Below, piece by piece: positions 33,175-61,421 of a stretch of DNA of 64,000 nt. The position numbers and the translations under genes are program-made. The notes under the pieces were generated by a model, which saw nothing but the letters and a program-made list of their open reading frames with translations, ran no database searches and was not told the origin of the DNA. Source of the stretch: Dictyobacter arantiisoli (GTDB lineage: Bacteria; Chloroflexota; Ktedonobacteria; Ktedonobacterales; Ktedonobacteraceae). Every line of letters starts with the position of its first letter. Position 1 is the stretch's first letter. The stretch is taken from contig NZ_BIXY01000004.1 of the NCBI RefSeq assembly GCF_008326305.1, forward strand, positions 1 to 64,000. Direction: 5' to 3'.

Positions 33175-33268
33175 CTCGACTTTGTACATTTTTAGGCTTT
33201 TGAGCTTGCGAAAAAGGGCGAGTGCAACGCATTTTTGAGCTCACATTTTCAAATTGTACAAAGTCGAG
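33175..33268. mobile_element. 94-bp palindromic element with 14-bp TIR and 5-bp target duplication
   Basis: CTCGACTTTGTACA at the left and its exact complement at the right, flanked by GTCAG at 33170-33174 and 33269-33273. Non-coding. It sits 35 bases upstream of the HAD gene and directly beside a family A repeat. Confidence 0.8.
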
Positions 33269-33276
33269 GTCAGAAT

Positions 33277-33471
33277 GTGTCAGACTCCCAGTACCAGCGG
33301 AATCTTGCTGTTCACTTGCTGGCAGGCGCGTCCGCGCCTGCACTCTTTTTATGATGTGTTGCAGAAAAGGTGCAAAGCACCTTTTCTGCAACACATCATA
33401 AAAAGAGGTTTGAGCACCGCAGGTGCGAAAACTCATGTGCGAAGAATGCGGAGATCATGGGAATCTGACTC
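33277..33471. repeat. Three-hairpin interspersed repeat (family A), complete
   Basis: Begins GTGTCAGACTCCCAGTACC and ends TGGGAATCTGAC (imperfect inverted ends). Three stems: GGCAGGCGCG...CGCGCCTGC-type, a long central palindrome ATGATGTGTTGCAGAAAAGG with its complement, and GCACCGCAGGTGC. The central stem sequence differs from those of the copies at 1 and 51400 although the surrounding sequence is nearly the same. Confidence 0.85.
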
Positions 33472-33695
33472 TCTGACAGATGCCGCAAAAAATGGCACGC
33501 AAGCTACAGGTTATCCCCAGATAGTGTACCTCTTGAATAAGGAAGATGGGAAGAGTGTATGCTGCTTCCATTTCCTGGCCTTCTCCTGCCGCGCCGCCGG
33601 AGGCGGCTTAAACTTGCCATTCTCTTTAATTATTGACTATACTGTGCTGATAGCGTTATGTGTTTTTATGATACAAAATAAGAAAATGTAAGCAT

Positions 33696-50063: not shown

Positions 50064-51395
50064 ATGACGTATAAATCGTCTCGTTTGCTCTCTGCATATG
50101 CAGTGATCATGCTCGTTATCTTGTCAGCGTGCGCTCAGACCACGAGCACGAATATCGATCCTGGCACCAATCCTGGTGTTCTGGACCCCCACAAACAGTA
50201 CACAGTCAACTTCTGGGAAACCTTTGACACAGGTGCCAATAAAACAGCCCTGACTAATCTAGTGAAGCAGTATACAGATACTCATAAAAATGTCAAAATC
50301 AACTTGCAGTCGTACGACTCCTATAGCACGCTGGAGACAAATTTAGCCGCAGCCTTCAGAGCCAACAAGCCTCCTGCCATCGCACAAACCGATGACAGCG
50401 ATGCTACGTGGTATCAGGGGGAGGGCAATCTCGCTTCCCTAAAACCATATATTACCGGGAAAAATGGGCTGAGTCAGTCGGACCTGTCAGACTTCTATAC
50501 ATCACTTCTGAAAGAGGGTCAGATCAATGGTGAGCAATTTACGTTGCCTTTTAACAAAAGTGATGAAGTTCTTTACTATAACGCCACTCTGCTGAAGAAA
50601 AACAACTTGCAGCCGCCGACGACGCTCACTGATTTGGTCGCCGATATTAAGATACTCACGAAAGCCGATGGCTCACAGTGGGGATTGTCTCTGACTCCGA
50701 GTGTGGATGAATGGGCCACGATCTTCAAGGATCTGGGTGGTAAAAACTTCATCTCGCCAGATTCTCAGCATGTGCTCTTCGATCAGGGTAGTGACGCACC
50801 ATATGCTCAGCAGGCACTTGAGCTGTTCGCACCACTGGCTAAAACAGGTGCCGTACATGTCACCACCGGATATAACTGGCAGAACGACTTTACCAGCCAG
50901 AAAGCAGCCTTCGCATTAGGTACAAGCGCCAGTTATCCATTTCTCAAAGCACATGGCGGCAGCAAATTTGACTTTAATGACGCCGCCTTTCCCGGAGGTC
51001 CAGCTGGTCAGTTCACCGTACTCTATGGAGGAAGCAACTTAGCCTTGCTCAGTGGAGTTAGCATCGATACACGCAACGCCGCCTGGGACTTCATGAAGTT
51101 CCTTGTGAGTACCACGTCGAACATCTCTTTTGTGCAGCAGACAGGCTCTATACCCATACGGCAGAGTGCCTTCAATAGTCAGAGTTTGCAGAGCTACTAT
51201 GCTCAGAATCCTGCCAGTAAGGTTGGCCTGACGCAAATGTCGCATACCTACGTAGCCTCGACTATTACTATCTGGGATGAGTGCATCGGCTATATCACGA
51301 CTAATTATGTCAGCGTCCTGAACGGACATAGCACAGCAGCCGCAGCCCTGAAAAATATGGCCCAATCATGTAATGATAACATAGACATGGCTTAA
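50064..51395 (+). CDS. Sugar ABC transporter substrate-binding lipoprotein
   Basis: 443 residues. Lipoprotein signal with lipobox LSAC near residue 23. Family 1 extracellular binding fold (VNFWETFDTGANKTALTNLV at the start, then NKSDEVLYYNATLLKK). Binds a sugar or sugar ester outside the membrane. No permease or ATPase gene is adjacent, so the partner genes lie elsewhere or are lost. Confidence 0.88.
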   Translation: MTYKSSRLLSAYAVIMLVILSACAQTTSTNIDPGTNPGVLDPHKQYTVNFWETFDTGANKTALTNLVKQYTDTHKNVKINLQSYDSYSTLETNLAAAFRANKPPAIAQTDDSDATWYQGEGNLASLKPYITGKNGLSQSDLSDFYTSLLKEGQINGEQFTLPFNKSDEVLYYNATLLKKNNLQPPTTLTDLVADIKILTKADGSQWGLSLTPSVDEWATIFKDLGGKNFISPDSQHVLFDQGSDAPYAQQALELFAPLAKTGAVHVTTGYNWQNDFTSQKAAFALGTSASYPFLKAHGGSKFDFNDAAFPGGPAGQFTVLYGGSNLALLSGVSIDTRNAAWDFMKFLVSTTSNISFVQQTGSIPIRQSAFNSQSLQSYYAQNPASKVGLTQMSHTYVASTITIWDECIGYITTNYVSVLNGHSTAAAALKNMAQSCNDNIDMA

Positions 51396-51399
51396 GAAG

Positions 51400-51596
51400 G
51401 TGTCGGACTTCCAGTCCCATCGGGATCTTACTGTTTGACCGGCTGGCAGGCGCATGCGCGCCTGCGCCCTTTTTAGTGTGTGGTGTCGGAAAAGTTCTTC
51501 GAACTTTTTCCGACACCACACACTAAAAAGATGTTTGAGCACCGCAGGTGCGAAAAATCATGCACAGAGATTATGGAGAGCATGGGAGTCCGACAC
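51400..51596. repeat. Three-hairpin interspersed repeat (family A), complete
   Basis: Ends GTGTCGGACTTCC and GGGAGTCCGACAC form a 13-bp inverted pair with one mismatch. Three stems as in the other copies, with a central palindrome TAGTGTGTGGTGTCGGAAAA and complement that differs in sequence from the others. It starts five bases after the binding-protein stop, so it may also terminate that transcript. Confidence 0.85.
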
Positions 51597-51608
51597 ACTC
51601 TAATGTAT

Positions 51609-51673
51609 TGTAAATTTGCGAATGAGATTGGCGGATTCAGCAAGAATCCGCCAATCTCATTCGCAAATTTACA
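51609..51673. repeat. 65-bp perfect palindrome at the transposase breakpoint
   Basis: Arms of 30 bases (TGTAAATTTGCGAATGAGAT, TGGCGGATTC) with the loop AGCAA. A 39-base half copy is at 44365-44403. It directly precedes the second part of the split Tn3 transposase. Confidence 0.9.
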
Positions 51674-56241: not shown

Positions 56242-56367
56242 TTAACAAAGTGCCAAACTCCCAGTACCATCGAGATCTTGCTGCTGACTCGCTGGCAGGC
56301 GCGTCGGCGCCTGCCAGCAGGTGAGCCACAAAAACCAGATGGGAGCGGGAATCAAACACTTTGTTAA
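56242..56367. repeat. Family A variant repeat
   Basis: Inverted ends TTAACAAAGTG and CACTTTGTTAA. The left part is family A (AACTCCCAGTACCATCGAG, GCTGGCAGGCGCGTCGGCGC) but the central variable stem and third hairpin are lacking. It lies between LanM and the glycosyltransferase. Confidence 0.65.
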
Positions 56368-60069: not shown

Positions 60070-60411
60070 TTAGTGGCAGGGATTGCAGGGATCACAGCTG
60101 CCGCCGCCAAAATCGCCACCGAAACCGCCGCCCCATGAGCCGCTGTGGTGATGATAGAAGCCGCCGCCATAGCCATAGCCACCGCCCGACTCGCCACAGG
60201 GATCGATGCCCAGGTTGATACCCAGGCCGAGGCCGAGGCCACCAAGCAAACCACCGCATTCAGGACCACAGGCACCACTGATGGTCGCCAGATCAATATC
60301 AGTTAGCTCAAGTGTACCAATGGGATTCTGAGGAAGCTGTGCGCGCTCCTCATTATTCAGAGAATTGCGATATTGGGCATCTTTCCAGGCGCGTGCGATA
60401 TCAATAATCAT
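60070..60411 (-). CDS. lanA: Lanthipeptide precursor, mersacidin/lichenicidin-type leader, Gly-rich core
   Basis: 113 residues. Leader of 47 residues: ARAWKDAQYRNSLNNEERAQ, LPQNPIG, LELTDIDLATISGA, matching the mersacidin/lichenicidin leader family, with cleavage after GA. The core of 66 residues is about half glycine, with six Cys (CGPEC near the start, SCDPCNPCH at the end), four Ser and no Thr, and GYGYGGGFYHHH in the middle. More Cys than Ser means that not all Cys can form lanthionine; disulfides or metal binding are possible. Confidence 0.9.
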   Translation of the reverse strand: MIIDIARAWKDAQYRNSLNNEERAQLPQNPIGTLELTDIDLATISGACGPECGGLLGGLGLGLGINLGIDPCGESGGGYGYGGGFYHHHSGSWGGGFGGDFGGGSCDPCNPCH

Positions 60412-60461
60412 GGTATGGAAACCTTTCTTGTATGAAAAAACTATTCAGGTTGTTGATTGGC

Positions 60462-60504
60462 GATCGGTAAGGGCAGCAGTAATTGTCTACTACCCTCACC
60501 GATC
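60462..60504 (-). promoter_or_regulatory. Hairpin between the two precursor genes
   Basis: GATCGGT-AGGG-AGT arms form a 15-bp stem with a few mismatches. A run of six T lies 20 bases further on, too far for a standard terminator. Likely modulates the ratio of the two precursors. Confidence 0.4.
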
Positions 60505-60551
60505 TGTGTTAGCACCTTGCGGGCTTTATAGTGAGCAACCAGGCTTAAAAC

Positions 60552-60872
60552 CTAGTAGCAACCGCCACCGAAGAAGCCGCCATAGCCGCCACCGAAGAAG
60601 CCACCATAGCTACCACCACCGAAGCTACCACCATAGCTACCACCACCGAAGCTGCCACTATGTCGGAAGAAGCCACCTTCACCGAAACCACCCTCACCAA
60701 AGCCACCGAAGCTGCCACCGAAGCTACCAAAGGCACCATCGATATTAGCCAGTTCGGTGTCGGTCAGCTCAACAGCTCCAACCGGGCACTGCGGAAGCTG
60801 CGCGAGTTCCTCGCTGGTTAATGAATTGCGATATTGGGCATCTTTCCAGGCACGTGCGATATTGATGTTCAT
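60552..60872 (-). CDS. lanA: Lanthipeptide precursor with Gly/Phe/Ser-repeat core
   Basis: 106 residues, start MNINIARAWKDAQYRNSL with AAAGGA upstream. The 47-residue leader matches that of the next gene at most positions (LAQLPQCPVGAVELTDTEL, ending DGA). The 59-residue core is built of GSFGG, GSYGG and GGFFGGG units with seven Ser, no Thr and one Cys, the second-last residue (GGGCY). At most one lanthionine can form, so most dehydroalanines would stay unpaired. The repeats are visible in the DNA as well. Confidence 0.9.
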   Translation of the reverse strand: MNINIARAWKDAQYRNSLTSEELAQLPQCPVGAVELTDTELANIDGAFGSFGGSFGGFGEGGFGEGGFFRHSGSFGGGSYGGSFGGGSYGGFFGGGYGGFFGGGCY

Positions 60873-61421
60873 TGTATGTATCCTTTCTCTTTGCATTGCA
60901 AAGACTTGTTTTTATTGGTACCGTCAAAACATTTTCAGGGAGACATGCGCTTTCATAAGAGAAAAAAGTTACTAACACTTTACGTACCGTCCATCCCATA
61001 TGAACTTACTGTATTGATCAATAAGCTTACGCATGTCTTGTTTTTTCTTCGTATACTTCTCGAACTCGGCACCTAAATGCATTATAAAAATTCATAAAAC
61101 AAGCGAGTAGCGTTAATTCAATGGAATTTTGAAGAATAATTCATAATAGCAATAGAATTAATGATTATGTTAAGTATTGATGAATATTGCTTTCATTTTT
61201 TAAGGTGGTGAGTATTGCTCCTATCGAGTTTTTTATAGCTCACATAAACTCAAAAAGGATAATTTCTTGTGTATTTCTATGAATTTTTCTCTATCTCGAA
61301 AAATGAATAAAACTTTAGAAAGTATATAAATGCTAGTTATACAAGCTTATTTGCATTGATTCTTATAATGTATAAAGAAGTAGCTAATTTGTAGAGTAGT
61401 GGAAATAGGTGGATAACAGGT
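60873..61421. other. Divergent intergenic region of the lanthipeptide locus
   Basis: AT-rich spacer between lanA (leftward) and exporter module 2 (rightward). A 15-base palindrome CTTTGCATTGCAAAG stands at 60890-60904 in the leftward leader. TTGACG (leftward, near 60930) and TATAAT (rightward, near 61366) are possible promoter parts, but neither has a fully convincing partner. Confidence 0.4.

Follow-up and report, generated by a model that had tools for sequence, protein, structure and literature searches.

A MITE-like repeat family of Ktedonobacteria with a drifting central palindrome, probably maintained by copying between its arms

Related palindromes and mobile repeats

The switching of template strands during replication homogenises the arms of imperfect palindromes and inverts their spacers, with precedents in the available parts of PMC8604942, PMC8794818 and PMC7202029. 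As presented in those parts, the cases are scattered events, found in yeast coding genes, in rRNA trees or in reporter constructs. Yeast inverted repeats with homogenised arms and inverted spacers of 2-5 bp are explained by strand switching in the accessible text of PMC8604942, and the discussion of PMC8794818, in the portion available, considers that the part played by template switching in the maintenance of stems is 'less clear', the strongest evidence being circumstantial. Mobile repeats make a second set of relatives. REPINs, mobilised by RAYT, are high-copy intergenic sequences with conserved ends and a variable hairpin interior, where compensatory changes are common and where the capacity to form a hairpin is taken as the critical feature (PMC3116915, available text); REP elements are tagged palindromes with variable stems (PMC3733652, available text). 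Bacterial MITEs are short, non-coding, mostly intergenic and present in high copy number, with inverted ends and a duplicated target. Inverted ends together with short target duplications are the marks of a MITE moved by a DDE transposase.

The family that we describe here resembles all of these. With quasipalindrome correction in E. coli, yeast and rRNA genes it shares homogenised arms and inverted spacers, both features of template-switch hot spots, as well as multi-base compensated changes and dependence on a short spacer; it differs in that a single ancestral hairpin is available in hundreds of natural replicates, together with fixed orthologs, and shows a steady state rather than isolated events. 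It departs from REP and REPIN sequences in its terminal inverted repeats, bordered by 3-bp TNA duplications, in the length of its stems (about 28 bp) and in the lack of a GTAG/CGTC tag at the foot of the hairpin. The REP-type transposase proposed as a partner in a first, sequence-only reading of the locus did not materialise: a genome with 33 exact copies of the tag of the family (G020) has no match to the Y1_Tnp profile (PF01797), and the tag lies in none of the 30 Y1_Tnp (RAYT) loci that were fetched. Unlike MITEs, the family keeps its central hairpin paired despite the drift of its sequence. No description of it was found in the literature on Ktedonobacteria repeats and transposases, on MITEs and on template switching, a search made mostly outside subscription papers, or in the available parts of PMC3733652, PMC3236041 and PMC13289182.

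The element, its copies and its mobility

The window, that is, the whole stretch of 64 kb that was analysed, starts at base 1 of contig C4 in a 7.2 Mb draft genome of 256 contigs. A repeat of about 203 bp occurs in it three times, together with one reduced relative, and all four lie on the forward strand where the sequence-only reading had placed them, with limits now refined to 1-118, 33273-33475, 51396-51600 and 56246-56363. From 5' to 3', the anatomy is an inverted end, a small GC hairpin, TTTTTA, the central hairpin, TAAAAA, a tag that is itself a hairpin, and the other inverted end. Copy 2 (33273-33475) is full length, with 203 bp and imperfect inverted ends; its flanking trinucleotides are TCA and ACA, so that it has no exact target duplication. 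Its first small hairpin (GCAGGCGC-GTCC-GCGCCTGC) occupies 33322-33341, its central hairpin 33343-33407, with arms of 31 bp (33343-33373 and 33377-33407) that are 100% complementary around the loop AAA, and its conserved tag, TTTGAGCACCGCAGGTGCGAAAA, 33409-33431. This tag forms the second hairpin, where a tandem GA/GA mismatch separates TTT/AAA from a GCACC/GGTGC stem. As a single strand, the segment 33271-33480 has a fold 10 SD better than those of its dinucleotide-shuffled versions. With relaxed settings, 601 bases searched against Rfam produced 24 matches below threshold; nearly all were to precursors of microRNAs, frequently on both strands, and we took them as the response to generic long hairpins.

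Copy 1 (1-118) is incomplete on its 5' side because the window begins with the contig; the surviving part of its central arms lies at 1-16 and 20-35, with loop ACA, and its right end, GACACTCTC, was read from the sequence. Copy 3 spans 51393-51603 with its 3-bp TAA target duplication on both sides, the element proper being 51396-51600; the genome-wide search put its tag at 51534-51556. Its arms (51469-51493 and 51506-51530) carry a one-base bulge close to the tip, AAAA on the left facing TTTTT on the right, so that the full self-complementarity ascribed to every copy holds for copy 2 and fails for copy 3. The reduced relative, announced at 56242-56367, is indeed present, but as a fold-back of one left end on another (56246-56363), with neither central hairpin nor tag and with arms (56242-56302 and 56307-56367) that are 72% complementary. 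Other repeats populate the window. A different palindromic repeat (CTCGACTTTGTACA...TGTACAAAGTCGAG) at 33175-33268 adjoins copy 2, and fragments of it also adjoin copies L002, L011, L013 and L014; an inverted repeat at 51609-51673, with perfect 30-bp arms around a 5-nt spacer, comes immediately 3' of copy 3, and unrelated hairpins of this type, perhaps the terminators of neighbouring genes, trail several other copies. Two direct repeats of 153 nt, 75% identical and with starts 461 bp apart, lie at 60265-60878.

The family extends across the genome. The tag of 23 bases (TTTGAGCACCNNNGGTGCGAAAA; consensus TGAGC[AG]CCnnnGG[TC]GCGAAA) has 239 matches there with at most two mismatches, against none for its reversed control. 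Among 47 genomes of the class, 10 contain the exact tag: all five of the genus of the window, four of the Ktedonobacter group and an isolated one (G042) that we count as chance, since the 110 bases preceding its single tag contain no hairpin of this type. The combination of tag and hairpin is thus confined to two genera among these 47 genomes; viral contigs gave no match to the tag. In the genome of the window, 21 of 134 tags fall inside crude ORFs, and 33 of the 99 with ORFs on both sides lie between convergent ones, the background being 99 of 602 spacers longer than 150 bp. A role as intrinsic terminator was considered and set aside: with TTTTT at its start and AAAAA at its end, the stem is not followed by a T run on either strand. 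Copies adjoin, within a few hundred bases, many contig ends (C1, C4, C7, C12, C36, C53 and C108), and the family therefore probably breaks the draft assembly. Beside two elements (L190 and L196), 3' of the tag and near a likely promoter, we noticed a dyad (GAACACATGTTC / GAACGCATGTTC) which may resemble a Gram-positive LexA box.

In the genome of the window the family is a MITE-like element. Sixty-three copies could be delimited by ends of 16 bp, separated by about 170 bp, with 20.5% mismatch overall and 15.9% when both ends are of the same type. The flanking trinucleotides are identical in 38 of these 63 copies, against 7.9 (17 at most) after shuffling ends among copies; the duplications are mostly TNA, TAA, TGA, TTA, TCA and ATA being the commonest, and two tandem copies on contig C91 have one target triplet in common. 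The elements were probably dispersed by a DDE-type transposase. No autonomous partner was identified: pairs of terminal repeats 0.7-3.5 kb apart enclosed no transposase in the 1.57 of 7.2 Mb read, none of 21 PF13340 and PF01609 loci had matching ends, and PF13359 was absent. As this search covered part of the genome, we keep the label 'MITE-like'.

Compensated change and inverted loops

A strong hairpin stands beside 128 of the 145 tags examined in the genome of the window, and of these hairpins 109 are perfect, the 128 together having 29 mismatches among 3,531 pairs. When this genome is pooled with G003, with G004, which belongs to the genus of the window, and with the Ktedonobacter group, under a stricter rule for the distance between tag and hairpin than in the single-genome count, and after dropping the 36 of 278 tags that had no strong adjoining hairpin, there remain 242 hairpins in two genera, 192 of them perfect, with 74 mismatches in 6,562 pairs. 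The copies were collected through the tag and the hairpin score favours few mismatches, so that for tag-linked hairpins this 1.1% should be read as a minimum. Median arm lengths across the four data sets are 28, 25, 28 and 28 bp.

This pairing goes together with considerable change. In 77 aligned copies, selected for a hairpin centre in common register, 22 of the 28 stem pairs have changed on both sides, and the covariance analysis suggested by the sequence-only reading counts 304 two-sided cells against 7 one-sided ones, a contrast matched in none of 500 shuffles and far above the slid control. Rather than a few identical classes with decayed pairing, the stems display 61 distinct 22-base arm ends (counted among copies with a 3-base loop) at 0.8% mismatch. 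Between copies in the genome of the window the flanks diverge by 23.7% and the arms by 21.4%, when the two arms of one copy differ by 0.82%; in G003 the arms diverge by 21.5%, the flanks by 25.2%, and arms within a copy again by 0.82%. We may therefore conclude that the stems were not slowed by a requirement for two matching mutations. The different central stems, for which replacement had been one of the two readings offered, are for the most part related to one another and have drifted by paired substitutions at about the rate of the flanks. Even where the flanks have decayed, as in L183, the stem is still perfect.

The loops come as reverse-complement pairs. In the genome of the window TTC is found 26 times and GAA 22, TGT 12 and ACA 7, TAT 11 and ATA 7; in G003, which has 2 contigs, ATCC and GGAT are found 6 times each and TTTC and GAAA 4 times each, together with less even pairs, ATTC 6 to GAAT 1 and ATCA 4 to TGAT 1. 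When pairs of copies with the same tip are compared in the genome of the window, 8 have the same orientation and 7 are flipped at 6-9% flank divergence; above this range the counts are mostly near even, but 27 are the same and 14 flipped at 9-12%.

Tag and hairpin are also found at orthologous places in three genomes of the Ktedonobacter group, within surroundings that are 94-98% identical. The genomes G020, G023 and G025 of this group contain 110 exact tags, and 10 ortholog groups entered the analysis. Fourteen comparisons at 10 loci, a set that contains the poorly aligned L141/L189 with its 14 pair indels, leave 323 pairs unchanged and show 21 that are compensated and 12 that are not, plus 48 pair-indel positions; with a single comparison per locus, there are 16 compensated and 11 uncompensated pairs. 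A simple arithmetic estimate predicts less than one independent double hit at about 4% divergence. L213 differs from L193 by a 2-bp insertion present in both arms. For at least one pair in seven of the 10 ortholog groups, in two of them by a single base only, the tips align better when inverted, and three groups show no flip. Compensation and flips at fixed loci imply that the effect does not need transposition.

Nearby arms stay alike and distant arms do not. Over 1.57 Mb of the genome of the window, inverted repeats unconnected to the tag, a group that includes some odd-tag or tagless family members, have 3.3, 1.8, 3.0, 7.8 and 11.1% mismatch for spacers of 0-4, 5-12, 13-30, 31-80 and 81-150 nt, respectively. 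Hairpins of the family, with spacers of 0-4 nt, have 0.5%, compared with the 1.8-3.3% of unrelated short-spacer hairpins, so that an extra factor may act beyond general template switching. The chief pointer to such a factor is this greater tidiness of the family relative to other closely spaced hairpins. The terminal repeats of these elements, which stand outside the hairpin on either side, have 15.9% mismatch when both ends are of one type.

Arm-to-arm copying and its competitors

We consider it probable that the central palindrome of this MITE-like family is maintained by DNA copying from one arm to the other, most likely through template switching during replication. The element carries a core made of this hairpin, its arms about 28 bp long, and of the conserved 3' tag. 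A nascent strand meeting this hairpin would fold back, or cross the fork, and then resynthesise the partner arm. A mutation in one arm would be either erased or copied to both, and a switch across the fork would also invert the short loop. The letters of the stem would then drift at an approximately neutral rate, its pairing being repeatedly reset, and the hairpin would stay perfect because replication keeps copying one arm from the other. The sequence-only reading had left a choice between selection for the fold and a copying mechanism: the latter is supported by the large excess of two-sided over one-sided changes, by loops inverted about half of the time, by the lack of preference for G-U over A-C, and by compensation and flips at orthologous sites where the element has stayed in place, and selection for an RNA fold is disfavoured. 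We infer the agent to be template switching rather than some other form of arm-to-arm gene conversion. A reason for the tolerance of such long palindromes was sought in an absence of SbcCD; with the SbcD profile (TIGR00619), six genomes out of six have only homologs below the cut-off.

Copying alone does not explain the narrow arm length of about 28 bp or the persistence of the core in two genera. One competitor is the selection of the DNA structure or dyad itself, as a cruciform, a single-strand hairpin or a site where a dimeric protein of the host or of the element would bind, the compensated variants themselves coming from template switching. The architecture of stem and tag conserved in two genera, together with the narrow arm length, would fit, as would the greater perfection of the family hairpins compared with others and a tag that is nearly invariant, although copies were collected through this very tag. 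Yet the arms diverge no less than the flanks, stems remain perfect in copies whose flanks have decayed, L183 among them, and no partner protein was found, which makes this proposal unlikely on the whole. In a tentative version, to which we grant some possibility, hairpin and tag would form a selected DNA-structure module of about 28 bp common to the two genera, its letters set free by template switching that rewrites both arms. If this were true, shape would be inherited and sequence would not, replication acting as the proof-reader of shape.

Could each copy instead hold an intact stem received from elsewhere, by recombination or conversion between copies? Exchange between copies does occur. 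At L063 (9705-9790) one arm is chimeric and neighbour-like, and at C46:30064 (L108) a right-right fold-back with arms of 77 bp and, in all, four mismatches, of which two fall within the stem, is the mirror product of the left-left derivative at 56246-56363 in the window, as if two parent stems had been joined. Copies in the 239-copy genome also have stem types in common. As a general account, whole-stem replacement remains quite improbable when set against arm-to-arm copying: near-identical ortholog stems differ by single compensated substitutions (L129/L130, L198/L206 and L122/L135), the 2-bp insertion of L213 relative to L193 sits in both arms, and the inversion of loops would be left unexplained.

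Selection for the structure of an RNA, encoded by the element or acting in cis, would keep pairing by compensatory mutation in two steps, and the strong covariation, the very stable fold, the second hairpin conserved with its tandem GA mismatch, the recurrence in two genera and the frequent position of elements directly after genes would all be accounted for. Such selection makes a prediction about intermediates. A transition in one arm yields G-T or A-C with equal chance, and a constraint on RNA would retain G-U and purge A-C; in rRNA, according to the available part of PMC8794818, G-U or U-G pairs are affected in 78.5% of the two-step compensatory changes. The mismatches in our 242 hairpins comprise 28 G-T/T-G, 26 A-C/C-A and 20 others (binomial p=0.89), so that the 54 of transition type show no excess of G-U; in the Ktedonobacter group alone, G-T is seen 10 times and A-C 5, which is too few to tell. 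One-sided cells with standard pairs are only 7 against 304 two-sided ones, the stems evolve as fast as the flanks, the nearly even inversion of loops is not explained by any constraint on RNA, and no Rfam family reaches its gathering score in the window. Taken together, these observations make RNA selection very improbable.

Finally, an artefact, short-read graphs collapsing the arms and picking the orientation of loops at random (in principle, de Bruijn assembly of the 256-contig draft, in which several copies sit at contig ends, might misorient them), is hardly credible when G003 (2 contigs) is equally perfect and flipped, pairing is nearly perfect in G004 (2 contigs) and in the Ktedonobacter group (3-10 contigs), and compensated ortholog changes require true sequences that differ.

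Arm-to-arm copying by template switching is a process already known, of which the Ktedonobacteria family provides a natural experiment of unusual clarity. Covariation is usually taken as proof of selection for RNA structure, and here copying alone is able to produce strong covariation; scores of covariation should not, by themselves, lead us to name such hairpins RNAs. The parity of G-U and A-C, the inversion of loops, the parity of arms and flanks, and compensation at fixed loci are tests that separate RNA selection from copying, and REPINs deserve to be submitted to them as well. With hundreds of natural replicates, in genera of which several species have been sequenced, the family makes the rates of these events measurable.
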